A stretch of 53,235 nucleotides of DNA from Spirogloea muscicola. Its lineage: Eukaryota; Streptophyta; Zygnematophyceae; Spirogloeales; Spirogloeaceae. This document shows, piece by piece, positions 12,789 through 47,714 of the stretch. Each line of letters opens with the position of its first letter. The stretch's first letter is position 1. The position numbers and the translations under genes were made by a program. The DNA lies in NCBI GenBank assembly GCA_009602725.1, contig WELB01000176.1, forward strand, positions 189,666 through 242,900, written 5' to 3'. The notes beneath the pieces were generated by a model that had not been told where the DNA came from, ran no database searches, and saw nothing but the letters and a program-made list of their open reading frames with translations.

Positions 12789-14170
12789 TCAGAATGTGGA
12801 TCCATTCCAACCAAAATCACTCCGCTGCAAAATGACAGACCAACAAAATTGCTCTTAGTTTGAAAGCTCTCTGGTAACTGTTGAGGAGGCTGCAGTAAAA
12901 GGTCCAAGCACTCCATTGGCATTATGCTGACATTATTTTGCATACTTTACTGAGCATTTAATATGTCCGCCTGATATGCACTTCTGACTAGGCCTTGAAA
13001 GCTGTCACAATAGTCGTGCAAACGCATAGTCGTGTAGGCTGGAATGAGTCTGTCCCAACAGACTCAATCAAACTCGCAAATACAAACAAGGTACACCTGC
13101 CTTGACTTTTATTTCTACTGTGTCGTAATGCAAGTCAATTCAGGGCCTTTGATCTGCCAGGGCAGGACCATTGTAGGACCTCTAGGGTGACTTACCATCC
13201 CTATGGAGCTTGTTGGACTGACCGCTACTCCTTGACCGACCGGCGCTTCTGAAATGTACTTAGGCTCTACTGATGTATGGCATGCAAGCATATGCTCTCC
13301 GCAGCGCTCGCCTCCAATCCCTGAGGTGCAGAGGTTTCTTTGTTGGCTCATTGCACACTCGCACTCTAAGCTCAAGTCTGGATAATGTGACATCCTACGT
13401 ATCGCCATATCTGCATGGCATGGCAGGGTGGCTTCTCGTGGCTCTACTGTCAATCTGCTGCAAAACTGAGTGACTGTACGCCTGAAGCTCACCTTCACAT
13501 CATAGAACTTGATGTACACCCGGTTTGGTGGCACGCTCAGCTTGCTCTGGAGGATATCGCAAACAGCTGCACTCAATTTCTTGTTCGTCTCTGCATCCAG
13601 CCCACCAATTGACACAACCTCTCCATAGGCTGTAGGCTCCTCACTGCCTCCAAAGGACATGGGAACTCCTGCCTTGAGAGACACCATGACGTACTGCCAA
13701 TGTGCATTGCACACGGGCTCTCCTTCAAGTAAGTTACACAGGTCAGAACAAAGGGCTGCAGCGAGTCTCTTGGGAGGCAGCAGAAAATAAACGATTGCTT
13801 CTTAGCAGCTATAGTTTTCCATGCAACTTGTACTGTAGGCATTGCAGGAAGCGTCTAATACAGGATATTATTGGAACAGCCTAATATGTGATGTTCTTGG
13901 AGCAGACGCATACATTCTAATAGTTGCATGGTCATGACCATGGGAGCCGGAGCACACGTGAGAATCAGAACCACTGAAGCATGTCAGACTTTTGCATGCA
14001 GTGTACTCCAATTGTGCCATACGGTGTGTGTTAAAGAGGAGTACAATCAGAAGACTTACTGACTCCGGCTTGCCAATGATCTTAGACACGGCCTTGCTAC
14101 CGTCCTTCAGTATGTCCGATGTCACGACGCCGTCTGCGGGAACGTTGGTCTGGATGTTGAGGGTAGGCAT
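12789..14170 (-). CDS. MIF/D-dopachrome tautomerase family protein
   Basis: Complement of exons 14170..14060, 13693..13493 and 12824..12789 (TGA); 115 aa, the normal size for the macrophage migration inhibitory factor superfamily. The start is MPTLNIQTNVP, giving the N-terminal proline that acts as the catalytic base after Met removal. Other family motifs are KIIGKPESYVMVSL, PMSFGGSEEP, VYIKFYDVK and the terminal RSDFGWNGSTF. The human CxxC oxidoreductase motif is replaced by TAYG after EEP, as in plant MDL proteins. The last exon is only 36 bases and sits 668 bases beyond exon 2, so it is easily missed. Members are trimeric keto-enol tautomerases; the natural substrate in plants and algae is unknown. 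The gene is divergent from EMC2. Confidence 0.94.
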
Positions 14171-27176: not shown

Positions 27177-29686
27177 GCGCGCGGCCGGCGCCCCGCGCCG
27201 CCCTCCGCACCTACCGCGGCCTCGTTGCCGGCCGCAAGGACGTCCAGCGCTTCGGCAACGTGTTCGAGGTGCAGCACGACCTGGCCTCCGCCGTCGCCGT
27301 CTCCGTGTCCAAGGCCGGGAGGGGCCGGCGCGCGGTCGTGAGCATGGCCAAGAAGAGCGTCGGTGACCTGACCGAGGCCGACCTCAAGGGCAAGAGGGTC
27401 CTCGTCCGCGCGGACCTCAACGTGCCGCTCGACGACCAGTTCAACATCACGGACGACACCCGCATTCGGGCCGCCATCCCGACCATCAAGTACCTGACCG
27501 AGAAGGGCGCCAAGGTCCTGCTATCCAGCCATCTGGTGAGCGTGCGAGAAGGCTCGCGTCCAGCGTGATCACCACTCCTCGTGCACAATGCAGGCGTCTC
27601 TTGCGCTCCATTCTCGAGGTCGAACTGACCAAGCAGGCTTGGCTTGCTGGCCGCAGCAGCATTTGCAAAGTGGGGGCCTCACTAAGATGATCAGCTCCTC
27701 AGCTTGCCTTGCAAAGGGCTGACCAGTCCTTTGCAAGTCTATCTACCCCCACCTTGTCATCTTCGGCGCCAGGCCACGATCATTGTCTTTGCAGTCGTCA
27801 GTGCACTGCAAGATCCAACAGCAAGAGGAATCAACATAGAGCTGAACAGCTGATCTGCAGTTTTCCTCTGCCTGCCGCTGTGGACCAGGGCCGCCCCAAG
27901 GGCGTGACGGAGAAGTACCGCTTGACGCCCCTTGTTGGCAGGATCTCAGAGCTCCTTGGATCGAAGGTAAGGGTGCACACGGTGCCTGACTCGCTTCCGG
28001 ATCAACGTGGAGTGAACTGTTGACTATCCAGGTCATGCGGGGGTGTTGGGTACCGGTGACTATCTGCATTGTGGAACTTTGCGTCACCAATTGTGGACAG
28101 CTATCCATCGGCAAAGAATGCTAGTTTGAGCTGTGATTTTGCTCCTTACACATTCTAACAGACTCCTCATGACTTACTGCACAGATTGAAAAGGCTGATG
28201 ACAGCATTGGTGAAGAGGTTGCTGCTAAGGTGGACTCAATGCCCAACGGCTCCGTTCTCCTGCTGGAGAATGTCCGCTTCTACCCAGAGGAGGAGAAAAA
28301 TGACAAGGAGTACGCCAAGAAGCTGGCGGCCAATGCTGATCTCTATGTCAATGATGCCTTCGGAACAGCCCACAGAGCCCATGCTTCTACTGCCGGGGTC
28401 ACTGAGTTCCTGCGGCCATCTGTAGCTGGCTTCCTTCTCCAAAAGGTGGAATCAGATGCCCTGGCTAAGCAATAGTGTGCAGGGTTTCCTTCATTAGTCA
28501 GTTACTTGCAGTTGGAGCCCAAGGCGTCATACTGGTAGGAATGACTGCTCGAAGCGGGACCTTGCGCTTGAATTTGACGCCCTTCACTCCTGTGCTCCAG
28601 GAGCTTGATTACCTTGATGGAGCAGTTGCCAACCCTACCCGCCCATTCGCGGCCATCGTCGGCGGCTCCAAGGTGTCCTCAAAGATTGGAGTTATCGAGT
28701 CTCTGTTGGCCAAGTGTGACATCCTGCTCCTGGGAGGTGGCATGATCTTCACATTCTACAAGGCCAAGGGCCTGAGTGTAGGATCCTCTCTGGTGGAGGA
28801 CGACAAGATTGAACTGGCAAAATCTTTGATGAAGTCTGCGGAGGAGAAGGGTGTCAAGCTCCTCCTCCCCACGGACGTTGTTGTTGCTGATGCCTTTTCT
28901 GCGGATGCCAATACTCAGGTACCAACATTGCAGTGAGCCTCTGTTGAAATGGGAGACAGTAGATGAGCTAAAAGTATTCCAAATGTAGTCTATGGAAAAG
29001 GATGCAAGAACGGGAGCTGATCTACCTCCAGCTTTCGCGCATTCGTACAGAGCCATCCTTAAGTTGTTGCTTTTGGTGCACCAGACGGTGGCGGCAGAGG
29101 CTATTCCCGAGGGCTGGATGGGGTTGGACATCGGCCCTGATTCCATCAAGACGTTCAATGAGGCCCTTGACACTTGCAAAACTGTGATCTGGAATGGCCC
29201 GATGGGTGTTTTTGAGTTTGAGAAATTTGCGGCGGGTACCGAGGTACACTTTACCAAAGCCCTACATCTGACAACCAGCCAGATGACCAGCTACGGCTAT
29301 ATCGCAGAAGTGTGTGGTTTGAAGTGTAGCAAGTTTCAAAGTTGGGCACAATAAGTTGCAGATATGGAACAGCCAGCCTCTGACAAAGGATCCAACAGGA
29401 TGCCTTGTCATAGCACAGCTGTCGAGCAATAAGTGGAGATGACTGAGGAACGAAGCACTGTCTTGTCCTGTGACTGCAGTCTGTGGCCAAGAAGCTGGCC
29501 GATCTCAGCGGCAGCGGAGTGACTACCATCATCGGAGGAGGAGACTCTGTGGCTGCGGTTGAGAAGGTCGGCGTGGCTGACAAGATGAGCCATATATCGA
29601 CTGGCGGAGGCGCTTCCTTGGAACTTCTGGAAGGCAAGGTCCTGCCTGGTGTCGCGGCATTGGACGATGCCCTCGTCACAGCTTAG
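27177..29686 (+). CDS. PGK1: Phosphoglycerate kinase, chloroplast type (5' end interrupted by an N)
   Basis: Exons <27177..27535, 27889..27966, 28185..28445, 28601..28918, 29085..29243, 29480..29686 (TAG); all junctions GT-AG and phase 0. Catalytic landmarks: [86 protein letters not shown] and [14 protein letters not shown] interconverts 1,3-bisphosphoglycerate + ADP and 3-phosphoglycerate + ATP. The Arg/Ala/Ser-rich stretch before [19 protein letters not shown] looks like a plastid transit peptide, which points to the Calvin-Benson cycle, although one PGK may serve both compartments. The initiator ATG is not visible and is probably lost in the gap at 27176. A TGTAA motif (29724-29728) shortly after the stop resembles the green-algal polyadenylation signal. 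Confidence 0.96.
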
Positions 29687-32917: not shown

Positions 32918-33928
32918 GAAATTGAAAGGGAGGCTTATTCAAGCCAATACATTGTTCAAAGCAGAGGCTAGTGCAAACTAAACAAGGCTACATGATGTGG
33001 AGACCTAAACTAAGGTGCCTAAGGTGACACTAGTATCCACGGGAGAGCACAAACAAATCTGACAAGCTAACTTGGGGAGCTGGAGCGCCACCACGAGAGC
33101 CGGAGGCCTGACTTAGAGCACGCGCTGCACGTTGATGAATAGCCAATGCTTGCGAGCGCTGCAAACTAAGCGAGAGCCGCATTCTGTAATATGCAACTAA
33201 GGCCTGCGGAATGCTGAAGTGGCCCAAGCTGCCCCCCCGACTTCGACGACGCGCATCGACCAGCCGGGCCAGATGCTGGAGCAGGGAGGACCTTTTTGCG
33301 CCGTAGCCTCCGTAGATATCCATGGCACACGGATAAAGATGGTCCCCTCGAGGATGGTCCTGGTAGTGCCGCTCCTTCTTGCGCTCGGCGCTGGACGTGG
33401 CCCAACCAGACACAGTTGACGTGGGTGCGCCAGCCTGTGGACGTCGATGGCAAGGGCCGCGAACTCGTCGCCGGGGGGGTGATCCGCGTACTTCCGCTCC
33501 TTGCTGCGGGCCGCCACAGCGACCGCATGCCCCGCGGTCGACGCCGACTTGGAGGAGTTAGCGGAATCGACACAGTCGGCGGTCACCACATCCGCGATGA
33601 GACGCGGACCGCTCCCGGGCGGGATGGCGACGAGGTCAGCGCGCCGGGTGTAGGTCTGGCCATCGGCGTCGCGCAGGATGGGCATAATCGACGTGTGCTC
33701 CACGGCCACCTTGTAGCCTGCCTCGATGAAGACGCCGTGCATGCCATTTCTGAGGAGGTCATGGGAACCGGTCCTCTCGCCGCCATGGGCACAACGGAGC
33801 ATGTGGGCCGCCAGCGTTGCAGGGTCAGCGTGGCGGGCACCGCACTCGCATTGCACGACTCCGACGAGGCAGGGGGGTAGGAGGCCCAGAAGCCGGTGCA
33901 CCGCCGTCCTGTAGACGGCGTCAGGCAT
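32893..33928 (-). mobile_element. Chimeric retrotransposon fragment: zinc-finger plus PD-(D/E)XK-like domain and C-terminus
   Basis: Minus-strand frame 33928..33197 starts with a CxC...HxxxC zinc-binding motif (CECGARHADPATLAAHMLRC) and a HDLLRNGMHGVFIEAGY segment. ADLVAIPPGSGPRLIADVVT and KERKYADHPPGDEF follow, a D...K pattern like PD-(D/E)XK endonucleases of some non-LTR retrotransposons. A second frame (33413..33030) repeats the KKERHYQDHPRGDHLYPCAM element and runs to SLSDLFVLSRGY-stop. The same motif thus occurs twice, and the piece looks like two copies fused with a frame change. The 3' UTR continues to about 32893. No reverse transcriptase domain remains. The retroelement assignment is by inference from motif order and multicopy tails. 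Confidence 0.65.
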
Positions 33929-34320
33929 TATGAGAGCCGCGTAGATGGGGAGCGCGGATACCCACGCCGCCGCCCCTGGGGAGGAGGCTGAGAGAAGCCG
34001 GGCGCGCCCTCGAAGGGGACTTTGTCAACAAACGAGAGAGCACATTCAGATCCGAGGCTGACTTGAGGAGCCAAGAGTACTGCCATGGAAGCCACTGGCC
34101 TGGCTAGAGCGCGCCCAGCACGCTGATGTATAGCCAAAGCTGGGAGGGCTGCAAATCTAGCGAAAGCGCATTTTGTACACTGCAACTGTAGCCTGCGGAT
34201 GCTAGTACGCCTCGAGCTGCCCCCCCGATTCTGACGACACCCGTCAACCAGCTGGGCAAGACGCTGGAGGATGAAGGACCTTCTCTTACTGCAGCAGCCG
34301 TTAATGTCCATAGCGCATGG
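33929..34320 (-). mobile_element. Decayed retrotransposon copy, minus strand
   Basis: The frame 34311..33928 contains a diverged version of the common C-terminal region: MDINGCCSKRRSFILQRLAQ, ALAIHQRAGRALARP and APQVSLGSECALS in place of SLSDLFVLS. Reading frame and tail have decayed. It abuts the chimeric copy below and hairpin repeats above. Confidence 0.6.
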
Positions 34321-35539: not shown

Positions 35540-36366
35540 CACCGCCGCCGCCGCCGGCGCACCGGCCGCCGGGCCGCGGTCGCTGCCGTGGTCGCTGGCC
35601 AGGGGCGTCGCCGCCGCACGGCGGAGCTTCAGGTAGGAGAAGCTGGCGGGACGCTGCCGTTGCCTTGCCATCGCTGCCGCTGCCTTGTGGCGGATCCTCA
35701 GGCTCTGACCAGCTGGATCCTGATCACTCGCCATGCCGCATGTGCAGCAACAAGGCCGCCGGCAGCGACATCATCGGCATCGACCTGGGCACCACCAACT
35801 CGTGCGTCGCCGTCATGGAGCTCAAGGTGCGCTGCAGAGGCGAGCTGGCCTCTCGAGCTGCCCTCTGCCTGCGGCGTGCCGTGTGTCGGCTGCCCATCCG
35901 CTGGCTGTCATGCTCCGGAGACGGAGGTCACGAGAACCGCAGGCGGCCGCCAGCCCGAGGAGGCGCGGCGAGCTGAGCCGTGCGCTCTGGCCTGGTCCTG
36001 CAGGCGCCGCGGGTGATCGAGAACGCGGAGGGCGCGCGCACGACGCCGTCGGTGGTGGCGTTCAGCGCCAAGGGCGAGCTGCTGGTCGGGACGCCGGCCA
36101 AGCGACAGGCCGTGACCAACCCGCAGAACACCATCTTCGGCACCAAGCGGCTCATCGGGCGCAAGTTCGACGACCCGCTCACGCAGAAGGAGATGAAGAT
36201 GGTGCCGTACAAGATCATCCGTGGCCCCAACGGCGACGCCTGGGTGGAGGCCGGCGGGCGCCAGCTGTCGCCCTCGCAGGTCGGCGGCTTCGTGGTGGCC
36301 AAGATGAAGGAGACGGCGGAGGCCTTCCTGGGCCGGCCCGTGGGCCGGGCCGTCATCACTGTCCCG

Positions 36367-36418
<52 letters not shown>

Positions 36419-39055
36419 GCGGCCTCGAGGTCGCGCGCATCATCAACGAGCCCACGGCCGCGGCGCTGTCGTATGGCATGGATAAGAAGGAGGGCCTGGT
36501 TGCTGTCTTTGACCTTGGTGGCGGCACATTCGATATCTCCGTCCTCGAGATCTCCAGTGGCGTCTTCGAGGTGAGGTTCACCACTTTCGTAGATGCCTTG
36601 ATTGATATGGAGATTGCTGGGTCCTTTGTTCTGCATTCGGCCTTCGTAGAGATTTTTGGTGATGCAAAGCTTGGTTCGAATCACGATCTGATGGGAAATT
36701 GTGGAGGAGTTTGTGGAGTCAGAGGATCTGATGCTTTGGCATGGTGAAGGTAACCTTTATCCGCTGGGAAGAATCTGCTCAATCTGACGCATTGCCGTGT
36801 TATTGCCGACCTGGGCCGCACAGGTGAAGGCAACGAACGGCGACACCTTCCTGGGTGGTGAGGACTTTGACAACGCGCTGCTGCAGTACCTGGTGGACGA
36901 GTTCAAGCGCAGCGAGGGCATCGACCTGACACAGGACCGGCTGGCGCTGCAGCGACTGCGCGAGGCGGCGGAGCGCGCCAAGATCGAGCTGTCGAGCACG
37001 CCGCAGACGGAGATCAACCTGCCGTTCATCACTGCAGACGCAAGCGGGGCCAAGCACCTGCAGATGTCCATCACACGCAGCAAGTTCGAGTCACTCGTGT
37101 CGCACCTGCTCGAGCGTGTGCGTGAGCCTTGCAAGGCCTGCCTGAAGGACGCTGGCCTCTCTCCCAAGGACGTTGATGAGGTGCTGCTGGTTGGCGGCAT
37201 GACCCGCATGCCACGTGTTCAGGTGAGGTTTCTGCCTTCCCATCTGAAAACTCCAGATCTTGCTGCTCATATGCAGATCATCAGTTTCATTGAGTTTCAT
37301 GGACGAGGAAGCTTGTTCATTACTGTACTGTTGATTTGGCCAAGTGCTATGCTGAGCGATTAGCTCAGCGCTTCACATGTCAGGTTTGCTGTTGTCTGCT
37401 CTTTCTTGTTTCCATCTTGACATGTCACTCAGGGCCTTGTTGACTGACCTGCGCCCTCAGTCGACTGCAGGAGATAGTGAATGAGCTGTTTGGCAAGGAG
37501 CCGTCCAAAGGTGTGAACCCCGACGAGGTGGTGGCGATGGGCGCCGCGATCCAGGGCGGCGTGCTCAAGGGCGACGTCAAGGACCTCCTGCTGCTGGATG
37601 TCACGCCGCTCTCGCTCGGCATCGAGACGCTGGGCGGCGTCTTCACCCGCCTCATCAACCGCAACACCACCATCCCCACCAAGAAGAGCCAAGTCTTCTC
37701 CACCGCCGCTGATGGCCAGACCCAGGTGCAACACCAGGGCTTCAAGGCTTGGGGCCAGTGCTTTGCCACAGGCCCCACTACCCTTTATCGACCATCGACC
37801 AGCTCGAGTAGCTCAATGACTCTGCATGAGGAGGATGCCGAGAGATAGAGTAGGAGCCACACTCCAACTGAGATGACCCCATTACATCTGGCAGGTAGGC
37901 ATCAAGGTCCTGCAGGGTGAGCGCGAGATGGCGGCCGACAACAAGCTGCTGGGGCAGTTCGACCTTGTCGGCATCCCGCCAAGTCCACGCGGCGTTCCAC
38001 AGATCGAGGTGACCTTTGACATTGATGCCAATGGCATCGTCAACGTGTCAGCCCAGGACAAGGCCACTCAGCGGGAGCAGGCCATCACAATACAGGTCCA
38101 TCCCGCTTCCCTTTCCTTCTTAGTGCAGTCATTTTGCTAGTGCATGTAAGTGCTTGGACCTTATAGCAGCATGTGCAGCTGATAAGCTTTCTCTGTTACC
38201 TCATATTGATAAAAGACTGCCCTGGCTTAGTTGATTACATCTTCTGTACCATCGCAGTCCTCTGGTGGCCTTTCGGAATCGGAGATTCAGAACATGGTCA
38301 AGGATGCGGAGTTGTTTGCTGCCAAGGACAAGGAGAGGAAAGCTCTGATTGAGGCAAAGAACGACGCAGATACGACTCTGTATTCAGTGGAGAAGAGTCT
38401 AAATGAGCACAAGGCCAAGCTTCCATCGGTGAGCAACAAGTCACAACTTCTCCTTTAAGGAAGCTGGCACTGGGTCCCGTGTCGATGGTGTGGTGGCATG
38501 TTCTACTCCTCTCCGTTGACCAGTGTGCATACAGACTTGCCATACACTCGACTATTCTGCACACGACTTAGACTACTCTGAAACGACTGGGGCAGCTGAA
38601 GACATGTTAGACATGGACGTCATATTATCAGCTTTTGCACAAGTCCACTACGACATACTGTGTGGTCCTAGTATCAAGAGCTCCACGTGCATGTCTGGCA
38701 CGTCTGCCTCCCGTATACAATGTGAAATGGAGGTACTTAGGTTTTACCAACACCAAGCAAGCATTCTGAGTGCCTTCTTTCTAAACATCGTTGTTTGCAG
38801 GATGTGGTGAGCAACATTGAGGCAGCTTTGGCAGATCTTAGGAAGGCTACGGAGGGTGACAACGTGGACAACATAAGGTCAACACTGAGTGCTGCCCAGC
38901 AGGCGTCATTGAAGATAGGGGAGTCCTTAGCAAGGCAGGCGCCACCAAGCAGTGGCGCAACAGGAGGTCCAAGCGACGGCAGGCCTAGTGGTGGCGACAA
39001 GACGGTGGATGCTGAGTATGAGGACGTGTCTTCCAATAAGGACAAGAACAAGTAA
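35540..39055 (+). CDS. mtHSC70: Mitochondrial HSP70 (DnaK family), 5' end interrupted by an N
   Basis: Exons <35540..35632, 35748..35826, 36004..36570, 36824..37222, 37471..37725, 37895..38095, 38258..38428, 38801..39055 (TAA), all frame-consistent. Exon 1 encodes an Arg/Ala-rich presequence ([18 protein letters not shown]) joined to [20 protein letters not shown]. Key motifs: [103 protein letters not shown] and [15 protein letters not shown]. The C-terminal DAEYEDV is typical of mitochondrial forms. It is the ATP-driven matrix chaperone and import motor. The ATG is not visible; it probably lies in the gap at 35539. The frames that continue past each exon end are intronic. It is convergent with the ethylene receptor. 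Confidence 0.96.
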
Positions 39056-39960: not shown

Positions 39961-42900
39961 TCAATGCAAGCTTGTCAGTACAGTCCTCATGCTGTCCAGA
40001 GACACCGGCTTTGCGACGACAGTGTCCATGCCTAGGGCTAGGCAGCGCTCCTTGGTAGCCCTGTCTGTGCATGCGGTCAATGCCACCAGCAGGGGCCTAC
40101 GCGTCTGTGCAGTGCTCTCCTTGTCCCTAAGCTTGGGATATCTTTCCAGTATTCTTCGAGCTACTTCAAAGCCGTTCATTTCGGGCATGACAAGGTCAAG
40201 CATAATCACCTGCTTTACAGACACAAATAGATCAGACATGCACAACTCAATCAAGTCTGTCAACATGACTGGAAGCTGGCTCTCAATTGACTCCAAGCCA
40301 TACCAGTTACAGATTACAGCAGGTGATGTTAGCAGCTGCAAGCATTCCTATCTCAGGGCAAACTTACATTGAAGGCGTGGCCTGGAACAAGAGCGGCGAG
40401 GCACTCTTTGCCGGAGTTTACTGTGGTGACCTCACAGCCCAGCCGACATAGCAGCCCGCGGGTGACCATGCGGTTTAGACTGGCACAGAAGATCATAAGA
40501 GTCATGTAAACATGAGTCATGTGAACAGTAGCGTATGTATAAAGTTGAGAAGCAGCCAATCAAGTCGATGGCAGTGTGCCCTGACTCCCCTTTTGCAGGC
40601 GCACCTGCTGGGGCAAGGCATTGGATGCTGGAAGCACCCAGTAGAACATGGATCATGATGTACATTGCGAAATTGCACACCCTTCCTGCAAGCTATGAAT
40701 TACCAAATGTGTAGCTATAACGTCTATTAAGTATCATGAAAGTATTTAGTCACCTGTTGTCATCTACCACAAGGGCTTTGAGGCCAGTACCAGCCAGCTT
40801 CACTGGGCAAGGGGGCTCTGCAAAAGCCACAGCGAGATCCTCCTGGTTTGGGAGGCCCAACTTAACGATGAATGTGACAGTGGCGCCCTTCCCAACTCCA
40901 GCGCTCTCGAGCCAAATGTGGCCTTCCATTAAGCTCACAAACCTGCACATACAGAAGCCTTTTCACTTGTGAGCTGCCTGCCACAATTGACAACAGACAT
41001 GGACAATCTTGTTGTCTATGTCGACATTACAAAGAGTCACATAGATGTGCATAACACCTGTCAAGCAGGTCAGGCATGTCAAGCAGCAATCAACAACAGT
41101 CACATGGTGACTGCTAGTCAGTTACTTGCGGTTCACATGTGTTAGCGTGTATCTGAGAGAGCTCAGACTTGAGAGGCTGCTAGATGCAAGAAAGCAGAAC
41201 ACACCGCTTGCAGATTGCAAGGCCTAATCCAGATCCACCAAAGGTTCTTGAGCCTCCTGCATCGGTCTGCACAAACTTGTTGAATAGAAGTGGCATCTCC
41301 TTTGGACTGATGCCCAGACCTGTGTCTTTGACCTGCCATGCAGATAACTTTTGTCAGTAGTAGGCATGAAGCCCACATTGAGGAACCTCTATGCAAGTTT
41401 GCGTGTGTTGCTTGAAAAGAGGTACTATGACAAACACTTCTTGAAAAGGCAGTACTCTTTGTGCCAAACACGAACTGCGCCAGGAATACTCAGAAGTGCA
41501 ATTATCACAGCAACGATGAAGGATGAGGTGGCTCAGATCTACCTGCACTCTGATGTATGCATGGTGGTCACCAGCTAAAGGCCTGAATTCTGGGCACCAG
41601 GGATCTCGAACCCAATGCGGTTGTTCAAGGGAGACAGACACGGAAACTGAGCCTTCCTGTGTAAATTTGATTGCATTGCCCACCACATTTAGAGCCGTCT
41701 GCAGCAGACGTTTACTGTCCCCAACGACATACTTCGGCACGTCTGAGTTGACCTTGACAGTGACAGTGAGCCTCTTGACAGAGGCAATTGGCTTCACCAA
41801 GTTAATCACCTGAAGAACAGCATTGCCCACTCATTATCCAACAGAAGTCGCCAAAGGTGCTTGCCCTTAACCCTGAGAAATACACTGATTGCTAGTGTAA
41901 CATTAAACACTCTACCGTTAAACACATGAAATGTAGTACACTGCTGCCAGTGTCAAGGAACAAGAGCTCGGAGATGCAAAAGATCTGACTTGCTGCGGAG
42001 CAGGACAATATATCTATGTATACCTCTTCAAACAGCTCCTGCAATCTGAAGGCCTGGCGATCAAGCTCAAGGGAGCCATCCTCAAGCCGAGAAAGATCAA
42101 GGACGTCATTAATGAGTGTGGCTAAAAGGTTGCTGCTCCGAAGCACCGTTTCCACCATGGACCTTTGTTCTGATGTCAAATCAGTCTCCTGCACAGGCGT
42201 ATCTGAAATCTTATTAGCAATTGTCAGACACGAACTTGTGCATCTCTTGCAACAACGGGGTATCCTCATGGTACCAAGTGGCGATAGAAGTTAGTCACAT
42301 GGGTCACCATGCCAAGTCAAGCAACAGTACTGCAAGTGCAACATTCACGGTGCTTCTTTGAGCTTGTTCACCAATCCCAACAGAACAAGGTCTCAGTAAT
42401 ATTGATATTACATTGACTGACCTGAAGCAGTGAGGAAAGGGCAATGACAGCGTGCATTGGTGTCCTCATCTCATGATTCATCACAGCGAGAAAGTCATTG
42501 CGAGCCCTGATTGCAGTCTCTGCTTCCCTCCTTGCCATGTCCAGAGCAACATTCTGCTCCATGAGCAGGTCCCGAGCCCGTAAGGACTCCTCCAAGATAG
42601 CCGCATGCGAGAGCGCCACAGCCACCTATTCAAGGAGCGGAAGCACGTCAATCGCCTTCCTTGGCGCAATTGGAGTGAAGTATAGGTCACTGACAAGATC
42701 TGAAGGGGCGCCATCATCAGCCAAAGTGGCACATGCACATGCAGCAACAAGGTGCAGAAATTGGTATGAAGGTGAATGCTTTGCTGGATACAGAGAATCT
42801 GCACATTTCACAATTAAGGTACTTAGGGTACTCCAGCTTTGCACCTGATCTGCAACGACCTCAACCATCTCAAGCTCATGTACATGCCATCGCCGCGCAC

Positions 42901-44815
42901 TATCTGATGGCAGCATCAGCACCAACAGGGCATAAGAGCGAGTTGTGCTGTCAGGCCAGTCTCCTGTGTGGAAGTTGTTCAAGTGCAGCAGGGGCACTCT
43001 GACTGCAACCACGTCTCCAGTCATGTATTTGCTTGATCGCGGTCGGGCAAGGGCCACTGGGCTGTTGGGAGATATGACCACAGCTCGATTGCTGCTAAAG
43101 ACTTGCTTGATCGTTGGGTGCTGCAGTTGAGTGTTTCAGGACCACTGCTTGTCAGGATCAGAGACTGGTAGGGAGGCCGGACTGACCACCAGACTGAAGG
43201 GTCTGAACCCAAACCCTAAACCCTAACTCCCTAAACCTTCTATGCTGAAGGACGACACACATGCACTCAATTTTGTCCCATCTTTGCCATGAATCGAATT
43301 CACCACCAGGAAATGATGTGCCTGCCTGGAGCAAAGTGTTGACTGCTTATAGCACAGCCATTGACCTGCCTTTTACCAACCTGTATTGGAACGGTGACAG
43401 GCATGGGATTCTGGGACCGCAAAGTGTGACAGAGCGTAAGCTCCTGTGCAGTAGATCGAGGCATCCACAAGGAGCACTCCTCCAAGGAGAGCGTCTTGCC
43501 CAGCTCCACCAGCGTGGTATTCAGGATGGTGTGCCGATCCAGAGTTGATCGTATCTCATGCGTCAGCATGCGAACATGCCGCCCAGTCTCTTCTTGCGTG
43601 CGAATCAGGCCCATCTCTCGGTCCAGCTCTGCAGCCTGCAGGAAAGCAAGAAAGGGAATGTTGGACAAGACCCCAAAGACAAGGTGGTGACCTGGCACAA
43701 ATCACCACGCAGAAAGGCTGGTGGAATACGGTTCCTTGGATGTCAGTCATGTGGTTGTTGATTGACATGTACTCGGATCTTTGTCTTGCCTGCTGACAAA
43801 TTGCTGATAGTCAACTGATGATCTACGCCACACTCGTCATAGGGTCTAGGGATGACACCATCATGCAAAGCCCAAGCAGGCCCCCTATGTAGGACATATC
43901 AAAGCCCATAACAAGGGGTCACTGACCGACGTGATGCAAAGGTTGACCAGCCTCAGCAGCCCCTTATCACAAGAGCAAGGCTGGTCTGAGCACCTTGTTC
44001 TTGAGGAAGAGCTCACGGGTTTTGACTGAGAGAAGGTCAGGGATGATGTGCACAAGCATAAGTGCTGTAGCACAGGACACCACGGCAGTCAACACCTGTT
44101 TGCATTATGCAAGAGATATTATTCTTCAATGCTGCAGCCTGTTACACAACAACTCAACAAGCTGGTCTTTTCTGCTCAGATATAAGGACTCAAATGTAAG
44201 GGCCACAATCTTCTCAACCAGGGCATGGTGAAAATGCTGATGTGGGAAATGAACATGCTAAAAGCTATGACTACAGCACCTTCGACAATTTTACAATGGG
44301 GAAAAATTTCAATGTAAACTCCTCAGCTATATGATCAACGGGAGTTCCAGACAACCACTGGAGGGCTTTTCAAGATCAAAGAGGCCATGCCTATTTCACT
44401 AAGCCTTACCTGCATTCCCTATGTAAGGGTGTCCACTTGCTCATTTTGCAATTCCTCACAAGAGCCAGCAAAGCAATGACCTTCACTTTTGCCTTTCCTT
44501 GACCTCAAAAATCATTGCTGTCGACTGGTGCAGAGGAGAACGCACCTTAGCAACAGTCATGACAATTGCCACAGTTTCGTCGTAACCATTGAAGGTCCAA
44601 AGGTTGATAAGGTGAGTTGCTCCGCACAGGACAATGAATGCTCCAAATTGGACGAGCACCCATCGATATGGAAACACCGCAGACTTCTTCACGAAGTAAA
44701 TGAGCTCCAGGGGAATAGAGAAGTAGGCAATAGCGATGAAGAAGTCCGAGACATACTGGTAACGAGCAAGCAGGTCGTCTCCGAAGTGCATGCAGTCGCA
44801 GTCCAGCGACACCAT
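39961..44815 (-). CDS. ETR1: Ethylene receptor, ETR1 type (hybrid histidine kinase with receiver)
   Basis: Complement of exons 44815..44546, 44095..43994, 43635..43381, 43120..42845, 42625..42422, 42188..42024, 41809..41543, 41332..41205, 40942..40754, 40479..40368, 40209..39961 (TGA); 738 aa, all GT-AG. Residues 1-115 hold three transmembrane helices ([39 protein letters not shown]) with the copper/ethylene ligands C64 and H68, D24, and N-terminal C6/C8 for the dimer disulfide. The GAF domain spans about 150-300 ([20 protein letters not shown]). HisKA His352 is in [11 protein letters not shown]. The N box is [10 protein letters not shown]1 is DTGLGIS, F box LFNKFVQ and G2 GGSGLGLAI. The receiver has VVDDN, Asp661 in [12 protein letters not shown] and Lys723 in AKPVS. 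This is a subfamily-I receptor, normally in the ER membrane and signalling through CTR1-like kinases. All catalytic residues are kept. Intron 3 contains telomere-like repeats. Confidence 0.98.
43208..43240. repeat. Interstitial telomere-like repeat (CCCTAAA type) inside an ETR intron
   Basis: Consecutive AACCCTAAACCCTAACTCCCTAA-like units (plant TTTAGGG complement) lie in the intron between receptor exons 3 and 4 (43121-43380). The run is short (about three to four units, one imperfect). Confidence 0.8.
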
Positions 44816-46320: not shown

Positions 46321-47174
46321 CCTCAACTCGGGCATGTAGTGCTCACATCGTTGAGACAGAATGGGAGACTTATGGTGGTGAAAATGCGAAAAGTCCAGCA
46401 AGGGACAGGGTGTTCACAAGAAAAGAAAAGGGACTGGGCTTCACCCGGTTCCTGGATGTTCAATACCAATGCAAACTGTGATCTGGTTGTGCTATTCCTT
46501 AGCTGGGGCTCACAACGTGCAACCCCATTTTAGGCAAGCAGGGCCGGGCGTTGCTTCCTCCTTGTTGCAGTGCTTCTGCATCAGTCCAACTCAATCGTGT
46601 TTCCATCTTTGCTGCCGCTGCCGGTCGACCCTGGAGCTCCATCCAGTTCGTCTTCAGCTCGTCTCTCCTCGCGGCGAAAGAGGTCATCGGCTGCATAGCT
46701 GTCATTGCACCTCGTGAGCTGTGTCTCCAGCATCCACCACTTTGTCGAGGGGCGTCTTCTGACCCAAGGTGGAGGGCAGCTGCGAGAGTCAGGGGTGGGG
46801 CGCAGCTTGCGCAGCTGAATCCTCCTTCCTCACCAGCGAGAGGCATGCGCCGCCACGCAATGGGCCAGCTTGCCAGCTTTTCCACCGGGGCTCCTGCTGC
46901 CAGAAGGCTCTGGCCCGTGGCGCCGGCAGGACTGGCCGTGTCCCACCCGGGTGCCCCGTCAATGCTACTCACACTGCTGAAGTACGTGACAGCGGCCTCT
47001 ATATGAGTCCTACATGACTTCACACTTGTAATGGAATGTCCAGGAGTAGGACATACCAATAACTCAAACATGAGAACTCCTATCTGGTACTTCAGGGCAC
47101 TGATTATTGTACTGCTCACTACACGATCTCTGCTGTTATTGCTCAGCCAGAGCTTGCTATGGTTTATATAAAGC
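46321..47174. other. Unassigned interval with an open frame of unknown origin
   Basis: The minus strand is open over 47182..46499; it includes AARRDELKTNWMELQGR and TRLSWTDAEALQQGG, which look protein-like. No family was recognised and no splice partners were found. It may be another retroelement coding remnant, given its neighbours. Confidence 0.35.
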
Positions 47175-47714
47175 TTGCCCAAAGTATGCCAAAAGCCGGC
47201 CTGCTTCCCGGTTTCTCCTCTCTACCGATCTGTCGATCTGGTCGGCGTCCCCCTGGGAGGTGGCAAGCGGCTCCTCATGGACTTTGTCCTCACCGACAGC
47301 TTCCGGACGAAGGGCCCCATTACTTCTGAGACCGGCTACGCTGTGAAGGTGGCCGAACGGAAGAAGCTGCACAAGTACAAGGACCACCCGGCGGGTGATA
47401 CCTTTTACCCCCTGGCCATGGACATCCATGGGTGTTACTGGGGTCGGTGGTCCTCGTTACTTTGGCTGCTGGCCTCTCAAGCTGACCAGCGGCGCCGGGA
47501 GCAGGGTGCTGCCCTTCCCGGTGGCTCGGTGCCTTTGGGTCTTGTGTCCTGCTACCGTATGCGATTGTCTACAATGTCCCTGCAGCGCTCCCAAGCGCTT
47601 GCTTTGCACCGCCGCGCTGGTCGCGCCCTTGCAGCAGCCTCTGGCTTGCGCAGCGGGGTTGCTCTTCCTCCCCTCAGCTCATCTGACTTCCTACTGCTGT
47701 CACGGGGGTATTGA
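47175..47714 (+). mobile_element. Retrotransposon 3' coding fragment (PD-(D/E)XK-like domain and C-terminus), plus strand
   Basis: This is the longest uninterrupted copy of the family's C-terminus, about 180 codons ending SSSDFLLLSRGY-TGA. It carries DLVGVPLGGGKRLLMDFVLT, then AVKVAERKKLHKYKDHPAGD and FYPLAMDIHG, giving the D...(E)xK-like arrangement also present at 33.2-33.7 kb. It continues CYRMRLSTMSLQRSQALALH and RRAGRALAAASG. Reverse transcriptase is absent, so it is a dead 5'-truncated insertion. The endonuclease role is inferred from similarity to C-terminal nucleases of early non-LTR elements. Confidence 0.68.

Follow-up and report, generated by a model that had tools for sequence, protein, structure and literature searches.

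An intact gene for a predicted ETR1-like ethylene receptor, most likely from a streptophyte alga

The stretch of DNA analysed here (53,235 nucleotides, called the window below) carries on its minus strand an intact gene of 11 exons, which is best read as an ethylene receptor of subfamily I (the ETR1-like type) in a green-lineage nuclear genome, most likely that of a streptophyte alga. We put the probability of this reading at about 0.9.

Gene model

The gene runs from 44815 to 39961, and was assembled by reading the three minus-strand frames and joining exons at GT..AG boundaries. The coding sequence of 2217 nt gives 738 residues followed by TGA, with no internal stops in the translated model. 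The exons, and the regions of the protein that they encode, are as follows.

44546..44815 (minus): exon 1; start codon, Cys6 and Cys8, and transmembrane helices 1 and 2 of the ethylene-binding domain (EBD), with the binding residues D24, Y31, I34, P35, I61, C64 and H68 (residue table; Pfam ETR1_N match, residues 17-114)
43994..44095 (minus): exon 2; third transmembrane helix and start of the linker (model; hydrophobicity scan)
43381..43635 (minus): exon 3; linker and first part of GAF (model; Pfam GAF match, residues 157-306)
42845..43120 (minus): exon 4; remainder of GAF (model, Pfam)
42422..42625 (minus): exon 5; DHp/HisKA, with the phospho-acceptor His352 (model, Pfam)
42024..42188 (minus): exon 6; remainder of DHp and start of the catalytic (CA) domain (model, Pfam)
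41543..41809 (minus): exon 7; catalytic domain, with N469 of the N box (model, residue table)
41205..41332 (minus): exon 8; G1, F and G2 boxes (model, residue table)
40754..40942 (minus): exon 9; end of the catalytic domain, linker, and D616/D617 of the receiver (model, residue table)
40368..40479 (minus): exon 10; first part of the receiver (model)
39961..40209 (minus): exon 11; remainder of the receiver, with D661, the gamma loop MPEMNG, T701 and K723; TGA stop at 39961-39963

All 10 introns are GT-AG, with lengths of 158-450 nt. Eight of them fall between codons, while introns 8 and 9 follow the second codon base. The full donor GTAAGT occurs only at intron 10 and the other donors deviate from it (for example GTGCTC at exon 2), so that the choice of splice sites depends on frame and homology. 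The join across the exon 2 donor gives the same residues as in ETR1. Translation is taken to begin at 44815, at the first ATG past an in-frame stop, and another Met lies 8 codons further on. A pseudogene or partial gene is ruled out, given that the frame is intact across 738 residues.

The first-pass annotation had proposed 11 exons and 738 residues. The model rebuilt here from the sequence is the same, with GT-AG introns throughout and an intact frame, and C64, H68, H352, D661 and K723 fall at exactly the numbers that it had assigned to them.

The intron between exons 3 and 4 contains plant-type telomere-like repeats (CCCTAAA) at about 43208-43237. In the window as a whole there are four matches to TTTAGGG on the minus strand, two of them in this intron, and none on the plus strand.

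Domain structure and receptor class

Five Pfam domains were found over their cut-offs, arranged in the order of ETR1: ETR1_N (residues 17-114, E=1.6e-32), GAF (157-306, E=1e-13), HisKA (342-407, E=1.6e-18), HATPase_c (454-584, E=3e-23) and Response_reg (613-733, E=2.7e-17). The receiver is also matched by a sixth family, Receiver_CRE1 (1.9e-06), narrowly above its own cut-off. A chance origin of these matches and of the intact frame is excluded. A sequence search of the PDB returned ethylene-receptor chains, namely 4pl9 (catalytic domain of Arabidopsis ETR1, E=1.4e-55), 4mt8 (DHp domain of ERS1, E=2.3e-42) and 1dcf (receiver of ETR1, E=7.9e-33). The match to the top row, 7p8e (8.7e-65), is confined to the kinase and receiver, and a search with the GAF region gave a single match, which was not significant (E=0.48).

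The seven residues that Arabidopsis ETR1 (AtETR1) needs for binding ethylene, D25, Y32, I35, P36, I62, C65 and H69, are all kept at the aligned sites (7/7), as in an ethylene receptor. Seven residues are described as required for ethylene binding by AtETR1 (PMC6682694), and D25, C65 and H69 are named among them (PMC12643061). The histidine kinase is also complete, with H352, N469, D516/G518/G520, F530/F533 and G546/G548/G550 in place. The intact ligand and catalytic residues that had been claimed, including the N, G1, F and G2 boxes and the receiver residues D661 and K723, are therefore all present.

The hydrophobicity scan marks the segments 24-42, 46-70 and 91-109, with no peak N-terminal to these. 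One further peak, at 645-663, falls within the receiver; AtETR1 likewise has an extra one, at 295-313. Subfamily I is described as having three transmembrane helices, an N-terminus of about 19 residues and no fourth helix (PMC6682694, PMC13012798), and the window protein likewise combines a short N-terminus with three hydrophobic segments in its N-terminal part, as in ETR1 and ERS1. C6 and C8 align with C4 and C6 of ETR1, so that the cysteine pair of the disulfide-linked dimer is also present. The predicted receptor fits subfamily I (ETR1-like). Subfamily II was rejected on the grounds of the short N-terminus and the lack of any hydrophobic segment ahead of the EBD.

The full-length comparison was made with an AtETR1 sequence that contains both PDB pieces letter for letter and has the 738 residues printed for ETR1 (PMC12643061). 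Identity to this sequence is 67% end to end, made up of 90/98 in the EBD, 149/190 in the linker and GAF, 91/100 in DHp, 94/179 in CA and 62/119 in the receiver. Comparison with the PDB-derived pieces alone gives 52% for 4pl9 (CA of ETR1), 79% for 4mt8 (DHp of ERS1) and 50% for 1dcf (receiver of ETR1).

Cyanobacterial homologues

A scan of genome_contigs with residues 1-124 yielded one relative, a cyanobacterial record, alongside 37 pattern stretches. A subsequent Pfam-family scan of cyanobacteria found matches in 74 of 292 genomes drawn from the phylum, 72 of them above the cut-off. Among the matches listed, 15 regions were taken, chosen mostly for open frames near 700 residues. Ten homologues in which the match extends to the receiver were aligned; L041, L042, L044, L046 and L047, in which it stops short of the receiver, were left out.

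In a tree, the window protein and AtETR1 group together at 100/100 against the 10 cyanobacterial homologues, with AtETR1 as the only other plant sequence included and with a residue composition of the window protein that deviates from what the model assumes. The branch lengths are 0.19 for the window protein and 0.37 for AtETR1. A cyanobacterial or other bacterial contaminant was rejected, in view of the 10 introns and of the identities, which are 67% to AtETR1 and only about 28-30% to the cyanobacterial proteins where a single alignment covers most of the protein. A scan of viral_contigs with residues 1-209, looking for a viral carrier, found no relative (148 pattern stretches, 0 confirmed).

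Genomic context

The neighbouring genes recognised in the window are listed here.

13115-13801 (minus): exon of a MIF-family protein (Pfam, E=2.9e-16)
28469-28936 (plus): exon of phosphoglycerate kinase (PGK; E=6.7e-38; closest solved chain 7zy7)
35977-39055 (plus): HSP70 gene with several exons, tail to tail with the receptor gene and about 0.9 kb from it

Pfam also identified a glutaredoxin and an EMC2-like TPR exon on the same contig. The HSP70 Pfam matches are in the frames 35977-36747 and 36788-37363, and the last exon, ending at 39055, was recognised by eye. GC3 is 0.60 for the receptor, 0.64 for the PGK core, and 0.93 and 0.83 for the HSP70 cores, in a window of 55.7% GC. The HSP70 values lie above that of the receptor, which counts against the preferred reading, although PGK matches the receptor. 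Taken together, the neighbouring genes and the base composition are consistent with the nuclear genome of a green alga.

Scanned against Rfam at gathering scores, the window gave no matches. Open frames at 33030-34024 (minus) and 47172-47714 (plus) share segments by eye: KERK..DHP.GD is found in three frames, and SLQRSQALA in both 33030-33557 and 47172-47714. Pfam gave no match on the frames 33197-34024 and 47172-47714. These frames are possibly a repeated transposable element. Five single N bases (4099, 11267, 20956, 27176 and 35539) are probably assembly gaps or masked spots.

Receiver domain

The receiver pocket consists of D616, D617, D661, T701 and K723, with the loop MPEMNG. This is the pattern of a response regulator of the typical type (DD, D, T/S, K and a loop like MPxMDG), except that the loop has N for D. 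At the positions aligned with Glu617, Cys661, Ser692 and Val711 of ETR1, the window protein has D617, V663, T701 and V720 respectively; Val720 is thus common to both proteins, at the position of Tyr106 in CheY. The suggestion in the first-pass annotation that this receiver is more canonical than that of Arabidopsis ETR1 holds up well, since D617, T701 and MPEMNG here stand against E617, S692 and MPGVEN. All 10 cyanobacterial hybrids have D at the Glu617 site, T at the Ser692 site, K at the Lys714 site, D-G in the loop and H at the Val711 site, while the first acidic position (the D616 site) is D in eight and E in two. Given that the D and T are shared by 10/10 of these homologues, the Arabidopsis state is probably derived, the plant side of the comparison being AtETR1 alone. 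The receiver described here looks as though it keeps most of the apparent ancestral pocket.

Hung et al. (2016, PMC4972365) assign the ETR1 receiver to an atypical class, report that it is unable to bind a phosphate analogue, and discuss a gamma loop that is flipped, along with the residues Glu617, Ser692, Cys661 and Val711. A working His-Asp relay in the window protein is plausible from its residues but unproven, because the ETR1 receiver is reported there as unable to accept phosphate. The same account describes an ETR1 receiver given CheY residues, among them Glu617 to Asp and the loop, in which phosphorylation was likewise impaired. Canonical letters by themselves do not therefore prove a relay. 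Among the matches listed in a literature search, no paper deals with the receiver state of algal receptors, as judged by its title and the opening of its abstract.

Alternative readings

An ethylene-gated phosphorelay might be the main output of the receptor, with phosphate passing from His352 to Asp661 and on to a phosphotransfer protein in the style of bacterial hybrids, a function that Arabidopsis ETR1 would have lost later. The cyanobacterial-type D617 and T701, the MPEMNG loop and the atypical nature of the AtETR1 receiver point in this direction, and for ETR1 itself a non-canonical branch has been described in which the relay runs from DHp through RD to AHP (PMC13012798). Against it are the impaired phosphorylation of the CheY-like ETR1 receiver, the Val720 shared with AtETR1, and the N in the loop where the cyanobacterial homologues have D. 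We consider such an output possible but unlikely. The fuller evolutionary version, in which the chemistry of the ancestral hybrid kinase has been kept and the phosphate-refusing receiver of Arabidopsis is a loss that came after signalling shifted to CTR1/EIN2, would be rather improbable. If the receiver truly accepts phosphate, it would offer a direct comparison for the disputed question of phosphorelay signalling by ethylene receptors, and would bear on when the plant line abandoned the phosphorelay.

Alternatively, the gene may be residual: intact, but kept for some other purpose in an organism lacking the downstream CTR1/EIN2/EIN3 pathway. The published surveys can be quoted on both sides. 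EIN3/EIL is reported as lacking in Mesostigma and Chlorokybus, in an account that nevertheless deems their ethylene signalling almost complete apart from EIN3 (PMC7027972), and EIN2 is described as absent from chlorophytes, Mesostigma and Chlorokybus (PMC10518463). Both the binding and the kinase residues are conserved, which suggests that the receptor itself is under selection, and we think it doubtful that the gene is a remnant of this kind. A land-plant contaminant in an algal assembly, or a window that itself comes from a land plant, is very improbable. The 67% identity to AtETR1 could also suit a bryophyte gene. However, the gene has 10 coding introns, whereas fewer are described for tomato receptors: SlHK7 and SlHK9 have five or six, SlHKL1-4 have one or two, and SlHK8 is intronless (PMC5000602). 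Its GC3 is close to that of PGK on the same contig, in a window of 55.7% GC, and the contig joins the receptor gene to the HSP70 gene. The preferred reading is still that of a subfamily I receptor in a green alga.

Proposed function

The sequence leads us to infer that the protein sits in a membrane, binds copper and ethylene, and acts as a kinase with a signalling output. By homology, the three-helix membrane domain would hold Cu(I) by means of C64, H68 and D24, and the two N-terminal cysteines would link receptor dimers. Ethylene binding would be passed through the GAF domain to the histidine kinase. As in the published account of plant receptors (PMC13012798), the receptor would be in its active state when ethylene is absent, and ethylene would switch it off. 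The output may consist of CTR1 docking, the land-plant mode, or of a relay from His to Asp, or may combine the two.

Comparison with known systems

Homologous receptors or ethylene-pathway genes are known from published descriptions of the streptophyte algae Spirogyra, Klebsormidium, Mesostigma, Chlorokybus and Zygnema. Ethylene receptor genes are reported in genomes from charophyte algae to seed plants, with candidates in some chlorophytes, and receptor function has been demonstrated in Spirogyra, a moss, angiosperms and a cyanobacterium (PMC10518463). Most ethylene genes are described as present in Klebsormidium (PMC7027972), and Zygnema has two ETR1 homologues, which are co-expressed (PMC9915684). 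The first-pass annotation saw in this gene evidence for ethylene sensing before land plants. The gene does encode a complete ETR1-like receptor, but the idea is not new, since charophyte receptors, functional in Spirogyra, have already been published (PMC10518463, PMC7027972). Apart from the receiver question, this is one more intact receptor in a family known from algae.

The window protein also resembles the cyanobacterial hybrid histidine kinases with an EBD (relatives of SynEtr1 and GeiEtr1). The seven binding positions and the H, N, G1, F and G2 motifs are found in 10/10 of these, as are D, D, T and K in the receiver (with E for the first D in the two noted above). Identity is about 28-30% in the five with one alignment across most of their length, and up to 51% over the EBD alone. 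They have one cysteine at the two aligned N-terminal positions, as against two here, and uninterrupted open frames, as against 10 introns.

The window protein is like AtETR1 in its length of 738 residues, its domain order of EBD-GAF-DHp-CA-receiver, its two N-terminal cysteines and its kinase boxes. It differs in ending shortly past the receiver, in an identity to AtETR1 of only about 52% within the catalytic domain and the receiver, and in carrying D617, T701 and MPEMNG where the Arabidopsis receiver has E617, S692 and MPGVEN.
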